Below, piece after piece: positions 8,860-19,648 of a DNA stretch of 38,636 nucleotides. The stretch's first letter is position 1; every line of letters begins with the position of its first letter. The notes under the pieces were generated by a model. It had not been told where the DNA came from. It made no database searches and was given only the letters and a program-made list of their open reading frames with translations. Both the position numbers and the translations under genes were made by a program. This DNA is from a virus. Location: the IMG/VR virus record IMGVR_UViG_3300046777_000623, positions 1-38,636 of that record; one strand, given 5' to 3'.

Positions 8860-9311
8860 ATCGCATACAGGTCGCGTCTTTAAGTCTTTCTGCTGCTGCA
8901 ATCATAGGAATTGCGGCGCATGAAAGCTTTCGATCTGACGCTTATATACCGGTTTCAGGAGACGTTCCTACGATAGGATTCGGAACGACTGACGGCGTAG
9001 AGATGGGTGATAAGATCAGCGTTGAAAGAGCATTGGTCAGGCTGCTTAACGATGCTTCTAAATTTGAAAAATCAGTAAGACGTTGCGCCCCTGTCCCTAT
9101 GTATCAGTATGAATTTGATGCTTATGTGTCGCTAACATACAACATTGGAGAAGGGGCTTTTTGCCGTTCTACGCTTGCAAAAAAGCTAAATTCTGGTGAT
9201 TATGTCGGCGCTTGTGAGGAAATCTTGCGTTGGAACAAGTTTAAAGGTAAGCCTTTAGCTGGTTTAACGAAGCGTCGCCAGCAGGAATACGCACAATGTT
9301 TGGGTCAATAA
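8856..9311 (+). CDS. SAR endolysin, GH24 phage lysozyme
   Basis: This 151-residue lysozyme hydrolyses peptidoglycan glycan strands. Residues 6-21 (VASLSLSAAAIIGIAA) form a weakly hydrophobic Ala/Ser/Gly-rich segment typical of signal-anchor-release endolysins, which the Sec system exports and the pinholin later frees. The glycosidase region follows directly. E23 in HESF is the expected acid, and the loop VSGDVPTIGFGTT supplies D36 and T39 as candidates for the other catalytic positions. The spacing E-to-D differs from T4 lysozyme, so the D assignment is tentative. AYVSLTYNIGEGAFCRST and GLTKRRQQEYAQCL are also family-typical. It overlaps holin and spanin genes. Confidence 0.85.
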   Translation: MNRIQVASLSLSAAAIIGIAAHESFRSDAYIPVSGDVPTIGFGTTDGVEMGDKISVERALVRLLNDASKFEKSVRRCAPVPMYQYEFDAYVSLTYNIGEGAFCRSTLAKKLNSGDYVGACEEILRWNKFKGKPLAGLTKRRQQEYAQCLGQ

Positions 9312-9748
9312 ATCTCATACCTGTTGCCTTAATTGGCGCTGCTGTTTTAACAGTTGCTGCTTACGTCAAAGGCCGTTATGACGGCTCTGATGCTATTGCA
9401 ATTGAGTTTGAGCGTTACAAGAAAGAGCAAATTCAGGCGCAAGCTAAACAGGTTGATGAGGCTAGAGCTAAAGAAAAGGAACTACAAGTCATAGCGAACA
9501 AGCTGAGAGAGGAAAAGAATCGTGAATCTAAAAAGGTTGCTGCCCTTAATGACGATCTTCTTAACAGCTTGCGCGACCGTGAATCCAGGCCAATGCCCGA
9601 CAATCCCGACGCTGGACAAAGTGGATGTACCGGAAAAGAGCTTTACAGAGAAGATGCAGAGTTTCTTGCAAGGATTGCCAGAGAAGCAGACGAAATGAGA
9701 ATTGCTTTAAAACAATGTTATAGCCAGTATGACTCACTAACCAAATAG
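9296..9748 (+). CDS. Rz: Rz-like i-spanin
   Basis: The protein has 150 residues. One N-terminal membrane span (about 6-24, NLIPVALIGAAVLTVAAYV) leaves a periplasmic body of charged coiled coil from about 36 to 95 (EIQAQAKQVDEARAKEKE type). The C-terminal region (GCTGKELYREDAEFLARIAREADEMRIAL) is seen in many phage Rz-like proteins. The i-spanin sits in the inner membrane and pairs with the outer-membrane lipoprotein encoded inside this gene (9522-9698) to fuse the two membranes at lysis. The gene begins 16 bases before the endolysin stop. Confidence 0.8.
   Translation: MFGSINLIPVALIGAAVLTVAAYVKGRYDGSDAIAIEFERYKKEQIQAQAKQVDEARAKEKELQVIANKLREEKNRESKKVAALNDDLLNSLRDRESRPMPDNPDAGQSGCTGKELYREDAEFLARIAREADEMRIALKQCYSQYDSLTK
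9522..9698 (+). CDS. Rz1: Rz1-like o-spanin lipoprotein, embedded in Rz in the +1 frame
   Basis: A 58-residue reading frame lies wholly inside the Rz gene. From a GTG start it reads (M)NLKRLLPLMTIFLTAC, a short lipoprotein signal peptide with lipobox LTAC and lipidation at Cys17. The mature part is small and proline-containing (ATVNPGQCPTIPTLDKVD, then VPEKSFTEKMQSFLQGLPEK). The ending '(F)TE.MQ.FL.G.LPE' is typical of Rz1-like o-spanins. AGAGAGGA lies about eight bases before the GTG, which supports this start. ATG 9549 would leave a signal peptide of only seven residues and is unlikely. The embedded arrangement is that of lambda Rz/Rz1. Confidence 0.85.
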   Translation: MNLKRLLPLMTIFLTACATVNPGQCPTIPTLDKVDVPEKSFTEKMQSFLQGLPEKQTK

Positions 9749-9756
9749 GTGAAATC

Positions 9757-9975
9757 ATGAAGCCTCTAGCACTTACCTTAATTTTTGCAAGCACTGTAGC
9801 AATTGCAGCAGTTCAAAATGAAGATGGCAGTGTTTTCCTAGAGGCTGATGAGGCGCAATACATTGTCAGGGTGTTCAATGACATGCAGGAAAAGATTGCT
9901 CTTCAGCAGATGTATATCAAAGAGCTGGAAGGCGAGAACAAAGTAATTAAGCAATCGCATTGCGCAAAATGGTAA
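9757..9975 (+). CDS. Small exported protein of unknown function
   Basis: This 72-residue protein starts with a clear signal peptide (MKPLALTLIFASTVAIAA, cleavage likely near residue 18) and continues as an acidic, partly coiled-coil segment (VQNEDGSVFLEADEAQYIVR ...). AGGTGAAATC precedes the ATG. It lacks a lipobox cysteine, so it is not an o-spanin. The position directly after the spanins suggests it acts in the periplasm during late infection, but no family is recognised. The final residues (SHCAKW) overlap the next gene. Confidence 0.6.
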   Translation: MKPLALTLIFASTVAIAAVQNEDGSVFLEADEAQYIVRVFNDMQEKIALQQMYIKELEGENKVIKQSHCAKW

Positions 9976-10166
9976 AGAAAAAAGTAGAAGATGCCAAAAA
10001 ATGCGAATGCTGCCTATTTTTCCTAATTGAGAAGAACGAAGAATTAGGAGAATGCCGGAGAAATCCTCCGTCTATGTATTCAGAGGATGGCGAGATTGGT
10101 TATGCCTTCCCTATCGTTCCGCTAACCGAATGGTGCGGCGAATTCCAAAGAAAGCTTGATTCATGA
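9969..10166 (+). CDS. Small Cys-rich (zinc-binding-like) phage protein
   Basis: I chose ATG 9969 over an in-frame TTG nine bases upstream; the product has 65 residues. It contains CECC near the N-terminus, then GECRRNPP and WCGEF. That spacing of cysteines (CxCC ... C ... C) suggests a small metal-binding fold. The wording 'CLFF ... GECRRNPP ... FPIVP.T.WCGEF' recurs in small phage proteins of unknown role. The gene is coupled to the phosphoesterase gene by an ATGA overlap at 10163. Confidence 0.6.
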   Translation: MVKKKVEDAKKCECCLFFLIEKNEELGECRRNPPSMYSEDGEIGYAFPIVPLTEWCGEFQRKLDS

Positions 10167-15380: not shown

Positions 15381-15493
15381 AACGTGCTTGGCGGCACGTT
15401 CGGATAAGCCCTAGACGGGACTCTGCTGGTATCCGCCAGTCCGCCAACTCCGACAATTTAAAGTCGGTGAGAGTCTCGCCTAGGGCTTTTTTT
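15381..15493 (+). ncRNA. Structured RNA with loop pseudoknot, capped by a terminator
   Basis: Between the zinc-ribbon gene and the replication gene, several pairings nest or cross. Hairpin P1 pairs AACGTGC (15381-15387) with GCACGTT (15394-15400). The whole six-base P1 loop TTGGCG (15388-15393) is complementary to CGCCAA (15442-15447), which makes a pseudoknot. A 19-pair closing stem joins 15406-15424 with 15470-15488, with one mismatch and one G-U. It encloses two small hairpins: CTGG/CCAG at 15426-15439 and CCGAC/GTCGG at 15450-15467. Seven T's follow at 15487-15493. No known RNA family is recognised. It may be an attenuator or a stable small RNA. Confidence 0.6.
15406..15493 (+). terminator. 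Terminator-like long stem with T run, before replication gene
   Basis: The arm AAGCCCTAG at 15406-15414 pairs with CTAGGGCTT (15480-15488), and the stem continues inward through GACTCT/AGAGTC. Seven T's close it at 15487-15493. The next gene starts 13 bases later, so read-through or antitermination would be needed for transcription from the upstream promoter. Confidence 0.6.
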
Positions 15494-15505
15494 ATTGGAA
15501 AAGCT

Positions 15506-16159
15506 ATGAACTATTACCAGTTCCACATAGGTGACTACATTAGTCATACGTATCATTTGACTGATGAAGAAGATCTAACGTATCGTAGGATGCTTGATTT
15601 TTACTATCAGTCTGAGCAACCTTTTTCTAGCTTTGATGTTGAAAAAATTGCAAGAAAAATAAAGTGCCATCCTGAGACAGTACAAACTATCCTTGAGGAA
15701 TTTTTTGACCATGACGGCGACGAAAATTGCTGGCACAACAAAAGAGCTGATGCCGAAATAGAAAAGTATCATCTGAAATCAGATAGCGCCCGCAAAGCGA
15801 ATCAGAAGCGGTGGGACTCTGGATCTGATCTGAAATCAGATGCGTTACAGATCCTAACCAATAACCATAAACCAATAACCAATAACCAAGAACATATTGA
15901 TCGATTTAGTTCTTTTTGGAAACACTACCCTCGTAAGGTTGCAAAGCCTAATGCGATGAAAGCATGGGCCAAGCTAAAGCCTGATGATTCCTTAACGGAA
16001 AAAATCATAGCCGCAATAAAACGGCAAAAGCTTTCCGATAGAGATATTCAATTTGTTCCGCATCCTGCAACGTGGCTAAATGCTCGCAGGTGGGAAGATG
16101 AAGAAACCCCACTTACTAAGACTAACGTTGATGTTTTTGCTGGGAGGCGCGTCATATGA
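15506..16159 (+). CDS. YdaU/DUF1376-like replication initiation protein
   Basis: I use ATG 15506 (GGAAAAGCT upstream) rather than an in-frame GTG inside the terminator stem, giving 217 residues. The N-terminus MNYYQFHIGDYISHTYHLTD, then EEDLTYRRMLDFYYQSEQPF, matches the DUF1376 (YdaU) family, which replaces DnaA-like or DnaT-like initiators in phage and prophage replication modules. The C-terminal part (SSFWKHYPRKVAKPNAMKAW ... FVPHPATWLNARRW) is the usual domain of phage replication proteins that recruits helicase. The zinc-finger and helicase genes follow directly. Confidence 0.75.
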   Translation: MNYYQFHIGDYISHTYHLTDEEDLTYRRMLDFYYQSEQPFSSFDVEKIARKIKCHPETVQTILEEFFDHDGDENCWHNKRADAEIEKYHLKSDSARKANQKRWDSGSDLKSDALQILTNNHKPITNNQEHIDRFSSFWKHYPRKVAKPNAMKAWAKLKPDDSLTEKIIAAIKRQKLSDRDIQFVPHPATWLNARRWEDEETPLTKTNVDVFAGRRVI

Positions 16160-16584
16160 TCGGAAATCTTCTCAATCGCCTAGAGAAAGTCAAAGGCAAG
16201 AAAGGCCGTTGGACTGCTTGCTGTCCTGCTCACGGCGACAAAAGCCCGAGCCTGGCTATCACGCAACTTGATGATGGTCGAATCTTGCTAAAGTGCTTTG
16301 CTGGTTGCTCTGCCTACGAAGTGGTTTCAGCCGTAGGCATGGACATGACTGATCTGTTTCCCAAAGAAAATAAGATCGCCTTTAAAGGTGAGCATCAAGG
16401 ATTAAAACCAGTAGCTAGGCCGTTCTACGCAACAGACTTGCTAAAAATTATCCATTTTGAGGCACTTGTAACGTCGCTAGTTGCGTTTGATATATCAGAA
16501 GGTAGGCAAGTATCAGACGCAGACAGAAAACGGCTTAAAACAGCTTTTGAGCGTATCAACGAGGCGGCGGGGTATATCCAATGA
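16156..16584 (+). CDS. Stand-alone CHC2-type primase zinc finger protein
   Basis: The first 70 residues match the zinc-binding domain of DnaG-type primases: RWTACCPAHGDKSPSLAIT (C23, H26), then DGRILLKCFAGCSAYEV (C47, C51). MDMTDLFP completes the typical ending. The remaining 70 residues lack a TOPRIM catalytic domain, so this 142-residue protein is not a complete primase. It could recognise priming sites for the host primase or be a partner of the helicase encoded three genes on. It overlaps the replication gene (ATGA). Confidence 0.75.
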   Translation: MIGNLLNRLEKVKGKKGRWTACCPAHGDKSPSLAITQLDDGRILLKCFAGCSAYEVVSAVGMDMTDLFPKENKIAFKGEHQGLKPVARPFYATDLLKIIHFEALVTSLVAFDISEGRQVSDADRKRLKTAFERINEAAGYIQ

Positions 16585-16844
16585 ACAGAGACCAAATTAT
16601 CCGAATTGCTGATGATGCTGGATTAACAATTTTTGAGGGATCACAAGATCGCATTCTGTTTGATGGGAGCATTGTTGACTCACTAGCTCGTTTTAGTGCG
16701 TTAGCAGCAGCGCATGAACGAGAGGAGTGCGCGAAAGTGTGCGAGGGAAAAATTTGCGCTGGAGATGGTGACTATACCAACGGCGCAAACATGGCGCGCA
16801 GAGAAGATGCCGGAGCTATCCGCGCAAGGGGGCAAGCAAAATGA
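16581..16844 (+). CDS. EREECAKVCE-family small protein, member 1
   Basis: The 87-residue product opens MNRDQIIRIADDAGLTIFEG and carries the family core AAHEREECAKVCEGKICAGD. It ends in GAIRARGQAK. Two other proteins in this window share 'EREECAKVCE ... IRARG' (16841 and 20495). The cysteines and the helical N-terminus suggest a small helical or metal-binding unit, but the function is unknown. Both ends overlap neighbours through ATGA. Confidence 0.55.
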   Translation: MNRDQIIRIADDAGLTIFEGSQDRILFDGSIVDSLARFSALAAAHEREECAKVCEGKICAGDGDYTNGANMARREDAGAIRARGQAK

Positions 16845-17044
16845 TTCTAGCTAAAGAATTTGAAGGCGAGTTGTGGGTAAAAGCGGCAGACCACCACAGA
16901 GAAGTTAAACGCTCAATTGAAGTAGAGCGTGAGGAGTGCGCGAAGGTGTGTGAAGATCACATGGAATGGGGAGAAATAAGCCCAACGATTGCGATTGCTG
17001 CTGGTAATTACGCTGATTTAATTCGTGCTAGGGGCGATAAATGA
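16841..17044 (+). CDS. EREECAKVCE-family small protein, member 2
   Basis: This 67-residue protein has a different N-terminus (MILAKEFEGELWVKAADHHR), followed by VEREECAKVCEDHMEWGE and the ending LIRARGDK. It lies directly after member 1 and is coupled at both ends, so the pair looks like a tandem duplication that has diverged outside the core. Confidence 0.55.
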   Translation: MILAKEFEGELWVKAADHHREVKRSIEVEREECAKVCEDHMEWGEISPTIAIAAGNYADLIRARGDK

Positions 17045-18036
17045 GCATTGAGGCTAGAGCATTAGACCTAGATGCCGCCAGAAAAGCGCGGATTATCAAA
17101 TCAGATTCAATTGACGTAGAGAAATATCTACATGCCAATGACGTAACGATACGAGTTAAGAAAGCTATTGATTGGCTAGAAACGATTAAAGAAAACTATC
17201 TTTCTGACCAAAGCCATCACCAAATTACTTTGCCGTGGACGAAAACGCATAACGGTTTTGCGTATCGTACTGGAGAGGTAACTGTCTATGCTGGTGGTAA
17301 TGGTGGCGGCAAGTCGCTGATTACTGGGCAGATTGCATTAAACCTAGTGAAGCAAGGCCAAACCGTTTGTATCGCTTCGTTTGAGATGAAGCCGGAGCGG
17401 ACGTTAGAACGAATGATGCGCCAGTTTGCCGGTGAGTTTGTTGATTCACCGATGACGCATGACAGGAAAAATTACATTGAGAAACTTGTTGGCAGGATGG
17501 ATAAGTTCCTGTCTGACAAGATGTACATTTACGATCAACAAGGGACGACCTCAGCAGATAAAGTCATTGCAATGGCTAGGTACTGTGCGATTGAGTTGGG
17601 CGTACAGCATATTTTTATCGACTCGCTGATGAAGTGCGTTAAGGGTGAGGATGACTTTAACGGGCAAAAAAGCTTTATTGATGAGCTGACGGCGATTGCT
17701 CGTGACCATAATGTACACATTCATTTAGTCCACCATATCCGCAAGCTGGTGAACGAGGAACAGCAGCCGAACAAGAATGATTTGAAGGGGTCTGGATCTA
17801 TTTCAGACCAAGTGGACAACGTATTTTTGATGTGGCGCAACAAGAAGAAAGAAAACCTGCGGAACATGGGCGAACAGGTAGATGAGTCAATGCCGGATGC
17901 GTACCTAATGTGCGAGAAGCAGCGTAACGGAGAAGCCCAGGAGTGGTATTCACTTTGGTATCACGCCAGCAGCCAGCAGTTTGTCGAGAAACTTGGCGCA
18001 TTACCTCAAGATTTTGATAACGTAGGAAAATTGTGA
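17041..18036 (+). CDS. Replicative DNA helicase, DnaB/RecA fold
   Basis: This 331-residue protein corresponds to the C-terminal ATPase half of DnaB-type helicases. Walker A is AGGNGGGKS (84-92), followed by SFEMKPERTLERMM. Walker B is HIFIDSL (D194). VHHIRK (about 230-235) is the sensor loop, and GSGSISDQVDNVFLMW is the arginine-finger region. The N-terminal primase-interaction domain is short or absent, like other phage helicases of this size. It would unwind DNA at the fork together with the YdaU-like protein and the zinc-finger protein. Confidence 0.85.
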   Translation: MSIEARALDLDAARKARIIKSDSIDVEKYLHANDVTIRVKKAIDWLETIKENYLSDQSHHQITLPWTKTHNGFAYRTGEVTVYAGGNGGGKSLITGQIALNLVKQGQTVCIASFEMKPERTLERMMRQFAGEFVDSPMTHDRKNYIEKLVGRMDKFLSDKMYIYDQQGTTSADKVIAMARYCAIELGVQHIFIDSLMKCVKGEDDFNGQKSFIDELTAIARDHNVHIHLVHHIRKLVNEEQQPNKNDLKGSGSISDQVDNVFLMWRNKKKENLRNMGEQVDESMPDAYLMCEKQRNGEAQEWYSLWYHASSQQFVEKLGALPQDFDNVGKL

Positions 18037-18233
18037 TTGATAGCGAAGAATACCGCCATCAATGCGAAGTCAGATACGTACTTCAATGGCGCACAGCAGA
18101 TCGTAATGTAGCAATCAATTACTTATCTGACGTAAGGCAAAAGCGTGGTGATGCGGCTGCGGATATGTTAGAAGAAGATTGCAAGAATCAATGGGCCGCT
18201 GGAAATCGCGGTGCAAAAGGAGATTGGCGTTGA
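18033..18233 (+). CDS. Conserved small phage protein (GTG start)
   Basis: This 66-residue product starts at GTG inside the helicase stop (GTGA). The sequence CEVRYVLQWRTADRNVAINY, then LSDVRQKRGDAAADMLEEDC, ending GNRGAKGDWR, recurs in replication modules of phages. The function is unknown. It lies directly before the nuclease gene. Confidence 0.6.
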   Translation: MIDSEEYRHQCEVRYVLQWRTADRNVAINYLSDVRQKRGDAAADMLEEDCKNQWAAGNRGAKGDWR

Positions 18234-18514
18234 GAGCATACAAAGTAGATACAAACCAGCGGGAAATCGTACATGGCCTTCGTGAAGCTGGATACACAGT
18301 CCAGCATTTACACAAAGTCGGACAGGGTTGTCCGGATATTTTGGTCGGCGCAAGGAATGGGCTGCGGAAATTTAACTTGTTGCTTGAAATCAAAGATATT
18401 TCTGGAAAACTAACAACTCAGCAAATTGTTTGGCATGGAGATTGGCTAGGACAAGTTGCTGTCGTTCGTAATCTTAAAGAGGCTTTAGAGGCGGTAAAAA
18501 ATGCCATCAAATAA
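18230..18514 (+). CDS. VRR-NUC-type nuclease
   Basis: The start is TTG 18230, supported by AAGGAGA seven bases upstream and the overlap with the preceding stop; the product has 94 residues. It shows the VRR-NUC pattern: VDTNQREIVHGLREAGYTVQ, GCPDILVG (D36), LLLEIKDISGKLTTQQ (E53, K55). The PD...(E)xK set is that of a compact nuclease domain used on branched DNA during phage recombination or resolution. A longer in-frame start upstream overlaps the previous gene too far. Confidence 0.75.
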   Translation: MRAYKVDTNQREIVHGLREAGYTVQHLHKVGQGCPDILVGARNGLRKFNLLLEIKDISGKLTTQQIVWHGDWLGQVAVVRNLKEALEAVKNAIK

Positions 18515-18920
18515 AAAACCGCGCAAACGCAAAACGGTCGTTCGCTCTGGCATTCCTTTGACCATTCGTCACAATGCTGATGAAGAAATATCTCTTCAGC
18601 TTGTACCGCATATGGAACTAACAAAGTTTCGCGAAGGTATCGCAGACGAACAATCCTGGCACACGATAACTGCTCGATTGAACGTAGGTCTGACGGCAGC
18701 TTGGCAAAACGATCTTGAGATGGATGTATTCCGCCGTGGCCTAGATGCTGTTATTAACGTCAGAGAACGGCATAAAAAGTCTGGACGTTGGGCATTGACT
18801 GGCGACGATTATCGGGACATTGGCGAGGCGCTAACAGAAACTGATAACTTGCAGCTATCGCTAACTAGAAAGCAATTTGCAAAATCAATCGAATATGTCT
18901 TTGCAAATGCTGGTATGTGA
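18501..18920 (+). CDS. Conserved phage protein, possible regulator
   Basis: This 139-residue protein opens with a basic patch (PSNKKPRKRKTVVRSG). A conserved helical body follows: RHNADEEISLQLVPHMELTK, DEQSWHTITARLNVG and GDDYRDIGEAL. Proteins with this outline are common in betaproteobacterial phages at this position, where some are thought to be transcription regulators. I cannot show an HTH clearly. Its end contains the -35 box of the promoter that drives the structured RNA downstream. Confidence 0.55.
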   Translation: MPSNKKPRKRKTVVRSGIPLTIRHNADEEISLQLVPHMELTKFREGIADEQSWHTITARLNVGLTAAWQNDLEMDVFRRGLDAVINVRERHKKSGRWALTGDDYRDIGEALTETDNLQLSLTRKQFAKSIEYVFANAGM

Positions 18921-18928
18921 TCTATAAT
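18901..18928 (+). promoter_or_regulatory. Strong sigma70-type promoter for the structured RNA
   Basis: TTGCAA (18901-18906) and a perfect TATAAT (18923-18928) are separated by 16 bases. Transcription would begin near 18935, four to five bases before the first long helix arm. The -35 box lies in the last codons of the preceding gene. Confidence 0.65.
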
Positions 18929-18934
18929 TTTCTT

Positions 18935-19290
18935 GTCTATGTATGCGGCGTAGATAGTCAAACTTAAGCCCTTAAAGCTTTGGTTTTCCTCCCTTAAGTG
19001 GGAACGTGCCGCATACACGGGGAAAGCCAAGACTTTAGGGGCTTTGTCATTTCCGGTACATAGGCCGTACTGATCGCGTTAGCAGTGAGTCCAAGTTCGG
19101 GACTGCCATCAAGAAAACCGAATGCGCTATACGACAGGACGGCGCAGTGAACTTGCTACAGGTATCACATAAACAAGCCAGCTAGGTTGATAACGGGTGG
19201 CCACGATACGGTCGGCTTGGAAGAAGAATGTAGTCGCGAGAGCGAGGCCATAACAGGCTTAAAGAGGTAAATCAACCTCTCGTCCTGTCC
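18935..19290 (+). ncRNA. Large non-coding RNA with two intersecting pseudoknots (novel candidate)
   Basis: This 395-base gap has no credible gene. Helix A pairs 18940-18949 with 19008-19017 (10 perfect pairs, TGTATGCGGC). Helix B pairs 18966-18983 with 19027-19044 (18 positions, 15 Watson-Crick, two G-U, one mismatch). A and B cross, so they form an H-type pseudoknot. Downstream, hairpin TGCGC/GCGCA (19123-19127, 19142-19146) has a 14-base loop. The last nine loop bases, GACAGGACG, pair with CGTCCTGTC at 19281-19289, making a second pseudoknot. Inside that domain lie stem CAAGCC/GGCTTG (19174-19219), a GAGA tetraloop hairpin (19234-19245) and AGAGGT/ACCTCT (19263-19280). AGTCC/GGACT (19088-19104) is a further hairpin. 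The RNA has its own promoter. No tmRNA, RNase P or intron core was recognised. Confidence 0.65.
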
Positions 19291-19315
19291 TATTGTCTAA
19301 TGAAATATTATTGCA

Positions 19316-19648
19316 ATGACAAAACAAATAGACCCGCATGAAGCAATCAACTTCATGATTAAAAACGCAGAAGCCTACGCAAAAGCTAAGGCTAACGTCA
19401 CATACTTGGAAAATTTCAGGAAATCAAAAAAAGCTATCATTTTCCAAAACGCATTGGGAAATACAATCGCAGACAAGGAGAGTTTCGCGTATTCTCATCC
19501 TGACTATCTAGCAGTTCTGGATGGTCTTAAGGAAGCTGTAGAGGAAGCTGAGAGACTTCGTTGGATGTTGGTAGCAGCTCAAGCTCGCATTGACGTGTGG
19601 CGATCACAAGAAGCTTCTAATCGAAATATTGATAGAAATACACAATAG
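19316..19648 (+). CDS. Conserved coiled-coil phage protein (110 aa)
   Basis: This helical protein contains AYAKAKANVTYLENFRKSKK, then FAYSHPDYLAVLDGLKEAVE and EAERLRWMLVAAQARIDVWR. The ending 'LRW.LVAAQARI.VWRSQEA' is conserved among phage proteins of unknown function. It starts about 26 bases after the structured RNA and precedes thyX by two bases. A nucleic-acid or scaffold role is possible but not shown. Confidence 0.55.
   Translation: MTKQIDPHEAINFMIKNAEAYAKAKANVTYLENFRKSKKAIIFQNALGNTIADKESFAYSHPDYLAVLDGLKEAVEEAERLRWMLVAAQARIDVWRSQEASNRNIDRNTQ

Follow-up and report, generated by a model that had tools for sequence, protein, structure and literature searches.

The 38,636-nucleotide stretch of viral DNA analysed here (the window, a 38.6-kb IMG/VR virus record) carries, between its replication genes and its later genes, a region in which sequence comparison indicates two RNA families absent from Rfam, M1 and M2, both of the broad kind of structured phage RNA. 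The reading that we favour is an independent non-coding transcription unit whose front module would gate what follows. The best explanation that we can offer, with perhaps an even chance of being right, is a two-module phage non-coding RNA unit in which M1 would act as promoter plus attenuator and M2 would be a folded RNA. A first-pass annotation of the same DNA had proposed one large RNA with its own promoter and two pseudoknots. Its view of a new structured phage RNA with real pseudoknots holds, but the single RNA gives way to two modules, of which M1 occurs without M2 and with several other kinds of cargo.

The locus and its relatives

The RNA region is flanked by the following genes, and no open frame spans it.

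15467-18920, + strand: replication genes (primosomal protein, primase, helicase, VRR-NUC/resolvase-like)
18501-18920, + strand: 139-aa gene, function unassigned, upstream of the RNA; an inconstant neighbour
19316-19648, + strand: 110-aa gene, function unassigned, downstream of the RNA; a frequent but inconstant neighbour

After the 110-aa gene come ThyX (19651), terminase (24601), portal, scaffold and major head genes. Flanking proteins used as queries gave 24 and 80 loci; a BLASTN search of these recovered the RNA region about 20 times, and DNA-pattern scans of the viral collection added further copies of M1 and M2. On alignment, the copies of the region separated into two blocks with different distributions, which we named M1 and M2 and which are represented by 50 distinct sequences (alignment A1) and 34 distinct sequences (alignment A2), respectively. 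Many loci come from the same contigs, and counts use distinct sequences unless stated; they rest on MAFFT alignments with visible misalignment in a few columns of P2 and H7, an error expected to weaken the support and not to inflate it. The tree-based covariation test is our own re-implementation of the R-scape idea against a tree-simulated null, not the published program.

All homologues of M1 and M2 are metagenomic contigs, and the host hints are indirect, consisting of a portal relative of a Methylophilales phage and an Rfam family named for Betaproteobacteria (Betaproteobacteria-1, RF02932). The closest named isolate by portal protein is Methylophilales phage Venkman; neither module was found in it or in isolate ctXG6705, both close by portal protein. 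BLAST of the window against 50,697 named phages returned chance-level matches only, and queries from three related loci (L158, L077 and L187) returned no matches in the same set, while a query from L192 matched only through its RF02932-like part, in Acidovorax phage AP1. M1+M2 DNA gave only short, weak matches in 399 bacterial genomes, and a genome scan with the M2 core pattern gave, by our estimate, about a chance number of matches, none of which was extended convincingly by profile.

Module 1

The features of M1 and of the sequence just before it are as follows.

18901-18928, + strand: promoter-like TTGCAA-16-TATAAT; the -10 box ends 6 nt before M1
18935-19045, + strand: M1, a kissing-loop pseudoknot plus a terminator-like hairpin
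18935-18955, + strand: P1 hairpin, stem 18935-18939/18951-18955; 86% of cells paired
18940-18949, + strand: helix A, 5' strand (P1 loop), pairs with 19008-19017
18966-18988, + strand: P2, 5' strand (helix B extended, including the AAGC and GCTT segments), with pairing and compensation
19008-19017, + strand: helix A, 3' strand (apical loop of P2), pairs with 18940-18949
19022-19045, + strand: P2, 3' strand and U-tract, intrinsic-terminator-like; CTTT in the window

The promoter-like sequence is present where the first-pass annotation had placed it. The pattern as such is no more frequent than chance (two found in this stretch against 1.9 expected), but a -10-like box 6-7 nt before M1/P1 recurs in nearly all relatives. 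Helix A, proposed from the sequence as a ten-pair helix, is indeed complementary at 10/10 positions, and in the relatives it appears as a kissing helix of 8-10 bp between the P1 loop and the apical loop of P2. Across A1, 99.5% of its cells are paired and 7/10 pairs show two-sided changes. The kissing sequence is hypervariable: the 50 sequences contain 21 versions of it, and of the 41 sequence pairs with at least 93% identity elsewhere, 26 disagree here. The P1 stem is less uniform, with two-sided changes at two pairs and mismatches in some relatives.

Helix B is likewise a real pairing (17/18 pairs including two G-U, plus one C.A mismatch), but we recast it as the stem of the terminator-like hairpin P2, in which 98.9% of cells are paired over the counted pairs and four pairs are compensated. 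The tree-based test picks out three kissing pairs (E < 0.005, 0.01 and 0.03) and one P2 pair (0.005). In most relatives P2 is followed by TTTTT or longer, and in the window and in L003 by CTTT only; the window's own U-tract is weak, and a terminator pattern scan makes no call there.

The AAGC and GCTT segments within P2 are invariant (50/50 sequences), and in 50/50 sequences the 5' prefix is predicted to fold into a short hairpin between them, far weaker than P2. One C of P2 never varies, and the base opposite it is always A or C; in the local AAGC/GCTT hairpin this C would have a partner, an equally invariant G. The pattern would fit either a transient alternative fold or a protein contact. 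A different competing fold, between ACTTAAG and CTTAAGT, had been suggested beforehand; the complementarity is there (7/7), but the fold is not kept in the M1 alignment of relatives.

Module 2 and support for the two folds

Downstream of P2, the features of M2 are as follows.

19061-19300 (about 19060-19300), + strand: M2, a pseudoknotted RNA
19071-19111, + strand: H2 (19071-19074/19108-19111) enclosing H3 (19088-19092/19100-19104), with covariation
19123-19146, + strand: H4 hairpin (19123-19127/19142-19146), whose loop 19133-19141 is the PK1 5' strand
19174-19219, + strand: H6 (19174-19179/19214-19219) enclosing H8 (19199-19202/19210-19213), with covariation
19184-19278, + strand: H7 (19184-19191/19271-19278), crossing H6
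19234-19245, + strand: H9 hairpin with a GAGA (GNRA) loop; tree-based E ~0 for 19236-19243
19281-19289, + strand: PK1, 3' strand, pairs with 19133-19141

The H4 hairpin and the 9/9 complementarity of its loop to 19281-19289 had both been noticed in the window sequence, and the relatives bear them out: 99.4% of H4 cells are paired, and PK1 is 100% paired with two-sided changes at 8/9 pairs and tree-based E values of ~0 and 0.003. H2 and H3 are paired in 100% and 98.8% of cells, with two-sided changes at one and three pairs, and H6 and H8 both in 100%, with such changes at four and three pairs. H6 and H7 form a further M2 pseudoknot that had been missed at first; H7 is paired in 85.2% of cells with two compensated pairs, its outermost pair being weak and the divergent rows gapped. 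The GAGA tetraloop sits at 19238-19241, in agreement with the earlier description, and H9 is paired in 71% of cells, the hairpin differing in the divergent branch. In the tree-based test six M2 pairs have E <= 0.06. For M2 we found neither a recognisable terminator nor a constant 3' end.

Folding energy gives a divided picture, with an MFE z-score against shuffles of -4.5 for the whole region, -5.6 for M1 alone (18935-19045) and -0.85 for M2 alone, the last because a nested fold cannot hold the M2 pseudoknots. Covariation is more telling. In M1, 97.0% of cells are paired and 15 pairs have changed on both sides against 7.3 in shuffles (0/500), the structure exceeding all 500 shuffles and every slid control; in M2, 93.4% of cells are paired and 26/52 pairs have changed on both sides against 15.7 in shuffles (0/500), with slid controls at 36-44% paired (ten helices counted on A2). 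The tree-based test agrees with the shuffle tests for both modules. Two-sided changes among relatives thus occur in helix A, helix B (as P2) and 19133-19141/19281-19289, the pairings on which the first-pass annotation had staked its structure.

A held-out scan used a pattern made of the P2 3' strand and U-tract, containing no kissing strands and no part of M2, and it returned seven new contigs. All seven keep helix A fully complementary, in six sequence versions. The M2 match between loop and 3' end was found by script in L309, L310, L312 and L313; in L311 and L314 the script gave another match first, and the same GTCTTGTC partner is readable in the sequence. The comparison thus shows that both modules adopt the folds given above, with the kissing helix of M1 and the pseudoknots of M2 among them. 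To the idea that a non-functional intergenic stretch merely folds by chance we give almost no credence: the unremarkable nested energy of M2 alone is in its favour, but against it stand 15 pairs of M1 and 26 of M2 with changes on both sides, more than in any of the 500 shuffles, and the pairing confirmed in the held-out contigs; covariation refutes the idea.

What M1 heads

Cargo was clustered over the 420 nt behind M1. The largest component holds 42 unique sequences, M2 and M2-like; L051 falls in it though its RNA looks different, and may be joined to it through the downstream gene. HNH genes account for seven cargo sequences, and a further cluster of seven combines Betaproteobacteria-1 RNAs with L163, which is probably there through a shared downstream gene. 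The other cargo comprises a family in L171 and L187 and a single type in L175. Three further types of cargo RNA can thus be seen behind M1, at L175:6200-6606 (minus strand), in L187/L171 and at L051:2660-2870, and these four loci have no Rfam match at the gathering cut-off.

Betaproteobacteria-1 RNA was identified by cmscan directly behind M1 at L192:2242-2357, L208:5837-5952, L161:1785-1901 (minus strand) and L195:2253-2368. It is structured, with about 120 nt modelled, and it occupies the same slot as M2, but M2 has its own helices, and the M2 of the window has no match to the RF02932 covariance model. RF02932 also occurs independently of M1, both in Acidovorax phage AP1 and in those bacterial loci that we inspected, from a few Burkholderiales genomes. 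In phage AP1 the RF02932-like sequence lies just behind a primase gene.

Some loci carry an extra RNA between M1 and M2, namely L117, L191:9170-9355 (minus strand), L308:2350-2534 (minus strand) and L310:170-380. In the last three it has a long closing helix that varies in sequence and keeps its pairing, and it looks like one family; the inserted RNA of L117 differs from it. M2 lies behind M1 in 55/55 loci with at least 600 nt upstream (redundant loci included), M1 stands before varied cargo and RF02932 also occurs without M1, so that M1 is the portable part, and the comparison of loci shows it as a module heading different cargo.

Insertion can be followed in several relatives. L196 has two M1 copies (9297-9408 and 9968-10087) with differing kissing sequences, one heading M2 and the other an HNH gene, and its M1+HNH unit is cleanly inserted where L194 has nothing. 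The 139-aa gene abuts the 110-aa gene at an empty junction in L092 and L102, and the same junction is occupied by M1+M2 in L077 and by M1+HNH in L072. In L105 (1528-2055), an HNH gene without M1 ends at the 3' flank CTATTGTCTAAAGGAATATG, which follows M2 in relatives, as if the junction were an insertion hot spot.

These exchanges bring to mind a mobile element, a homing endonuclease cassette controlled through M1 in which the nuclease would have given way to M2 as a guide- or ribozyme-like RNA. M1+HNH and M1+M2 at one junction, the existence of empty junctions and the unrelated HNH gene at the same spot in L105 all suit this idea. We nevertheless consider it quite improbable, given that the window has no nuclease gene beside M2, that no HEARO or other guide RNA match was found in Rfam, and that no variable guide-like end was noticed, the ends not being repeats.

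A second possibility is that M1 itself is the effector, a discrete, terminated small RNA acting in trans through protein binding or loop self-pairing, with M2 merely travelling along. Promoter and terminator bound M1 neatly, both strands of P2 are strongly conserved in primary sequence (mean entropy 0.30 bit against 1.0 in the helix A core), and the differing loop pairs of the two L196 copies would fit self-specific assembly. Against this, an RNA or an HNH gene always follows M1 in the clusters examined, and M1 never appears as a lone small RNA before an ordinary gene. We regard an effector role for M1 as unlikely, though deserving of attention.

A proposed mechanism

The unit's relation to the genes behind it bears on whether it acts as a leader. 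In the window it lies directly 5' of the 110-aa gene and then ThyX, as a cis-regulatory leader (riboswitch) of the following gene would. However, the genes behind M2 vary among relatives (the 110-aa gene, a methyltransferase-like gene, DUF5843 and others), and the next gene has its own promoter-like sequence in L309, L311, L312 and L313. In one lineage, seen in L309, L311 and L313, the M1 promoter is preceded by a terminator, and M2 is followed by a new promoter-like sequence and a ribosome-binding site; the unit there is therefore its own transcription unit and not a leader. A leader function seems very improbable to us, and a riboswitch for the 110-aa and ThyX genes in particular is largely refuted by the variety of downstream genes and their separate promoters.

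We also considered whether M1/M2 might modify RNA polymerase as a processive antitermination element ahead of later genes. The model for this is HK022 put, a structured phage RNA just behind its promoter that affects transcription (PMC9378689), and its layout is that of a structured nascent RNA near the promoter (PMC9378689). The unit of the window phage sits behind a promoter, between replication and later genes. Yet put is about 70 nt with two stem-loops and suppresses termination, while M1 itself ends in a terminator-like hairpin; in addition, a new promoter follows M2 in other lineages, and M1+HNH and M1+M2 units share one genome (L196). A put-like role is in our view improbable.

For the two-module unit with an attenuating M1, we would envisage transcription beginning with the first base of P1. 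The short AAGC/GCTT hairpin would form first, P1 would then kiss the apical loop, and the long P2 helix would close as an intrinsic terminator. Most transcripts would end as an M1 RNA of about 110 nt and a fraction would read through into the cargo, such that M1 would set how much M2 is made, or how much of a different RNA or an HNH nuclease in relatives with such cargo. Where the cargo is an HNH gene, its start codon lies directly behind the U-tract and a GAGG, likely to be its ribosome-binding sequence, lies within the P2 stem and would be hidden by it, so that a single hairpin would restrain transcription and translation alike. M2 would act as a folded RNA, probably in trans, which is the plainest reading of its conservation.

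Several considerations tell against this explanation. Only CTTT follows P2 in the window and L003, and termination there may be poor; a plain attenuator would have no need of kissing loops that are hypervariable. No antiterminator state with a trigger was found for M1, the AAGC/GCTT hairpin is much the weaker of the two beside P2, and M2 shows no recognisable end signal. A bolder form of the attenuator reading, which we advance tentatively and as possible rather than probable, is that M1 represents a new class of portable RNA control element, a promoter-proximal attenuator locked by a self-specific and fast-changing kiss, as the differing loop pairs of the L196 copies would suggest, and placed before interchangeable RNAs or homing endonucleases, with M2 and the other cargo forming a set of unexplored folded phage RNAs reached through one locus.

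Relation to known systems

We know of no described system in which a portable kissing-loop head precedes interchangeable RNA or endonuclease cargo. Against Rfam 15 the window gave no match at the gathering cut-off, and at E <= 10 the region 18800-19420 gave chance-level matches only, nothing of relevance among them. The absence of a tmRNA core, already remarked on from the sequence, agrees with ARAGORN, which found no tRNA or tmRNA, and with the lack of an Rfam tmRNA match. There was likewise no match of M1 or M2 to the GOLLD and ROOL covariance models and none to HEARO or omega RNA in Rfam, and no paper under the name Betaproteobacteria-1 motif turned up in the open-access literature.

One likeness in kind is with GOLLD and ROOL, large structured non-coding RNAs that phages and prophages encode; these contain pseudoknots and kissing loops, and their function is unknown (PMC12286853). 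M1 and M2 share with them the character of structured phage RNAs with such pseudoknots and kissing loops, but they are far smaller and have a portable front module. The layout of M1+HNH resembles the control regions of T4 homing endonucleases (mobE, segB, I-TevI), where hairpins hide the ribosome-binding site and terminators limit expression (PMC2988022). Unlike these, M1 has a promoter of its own and a conserved kissing-loop structure, and its cargo is usually an RNA and not an endonuclease.

Two RNA families with complex pseudoknots and no Rfam entry thereby gain firm comparative support, an orphan Rfam family, Betaproteobacteria-1, is linked to the same phage locus, and one head module is seen to be exchanged between RNA and endonuclease cargo. 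The natural loop variants, the empty junctions and the presence of two copies in one genome offer a handle on the function of structured phage RNAs and on switching.

The downstream neighbour

The 110-aa gene at 19316-19648 is a widespread uncharacterised phage gene. Its protein has no Pfam or PHROG match, and it has 321 relatives on viral contigs together with distant relatives in Vibrio and Pseudomonas phages.
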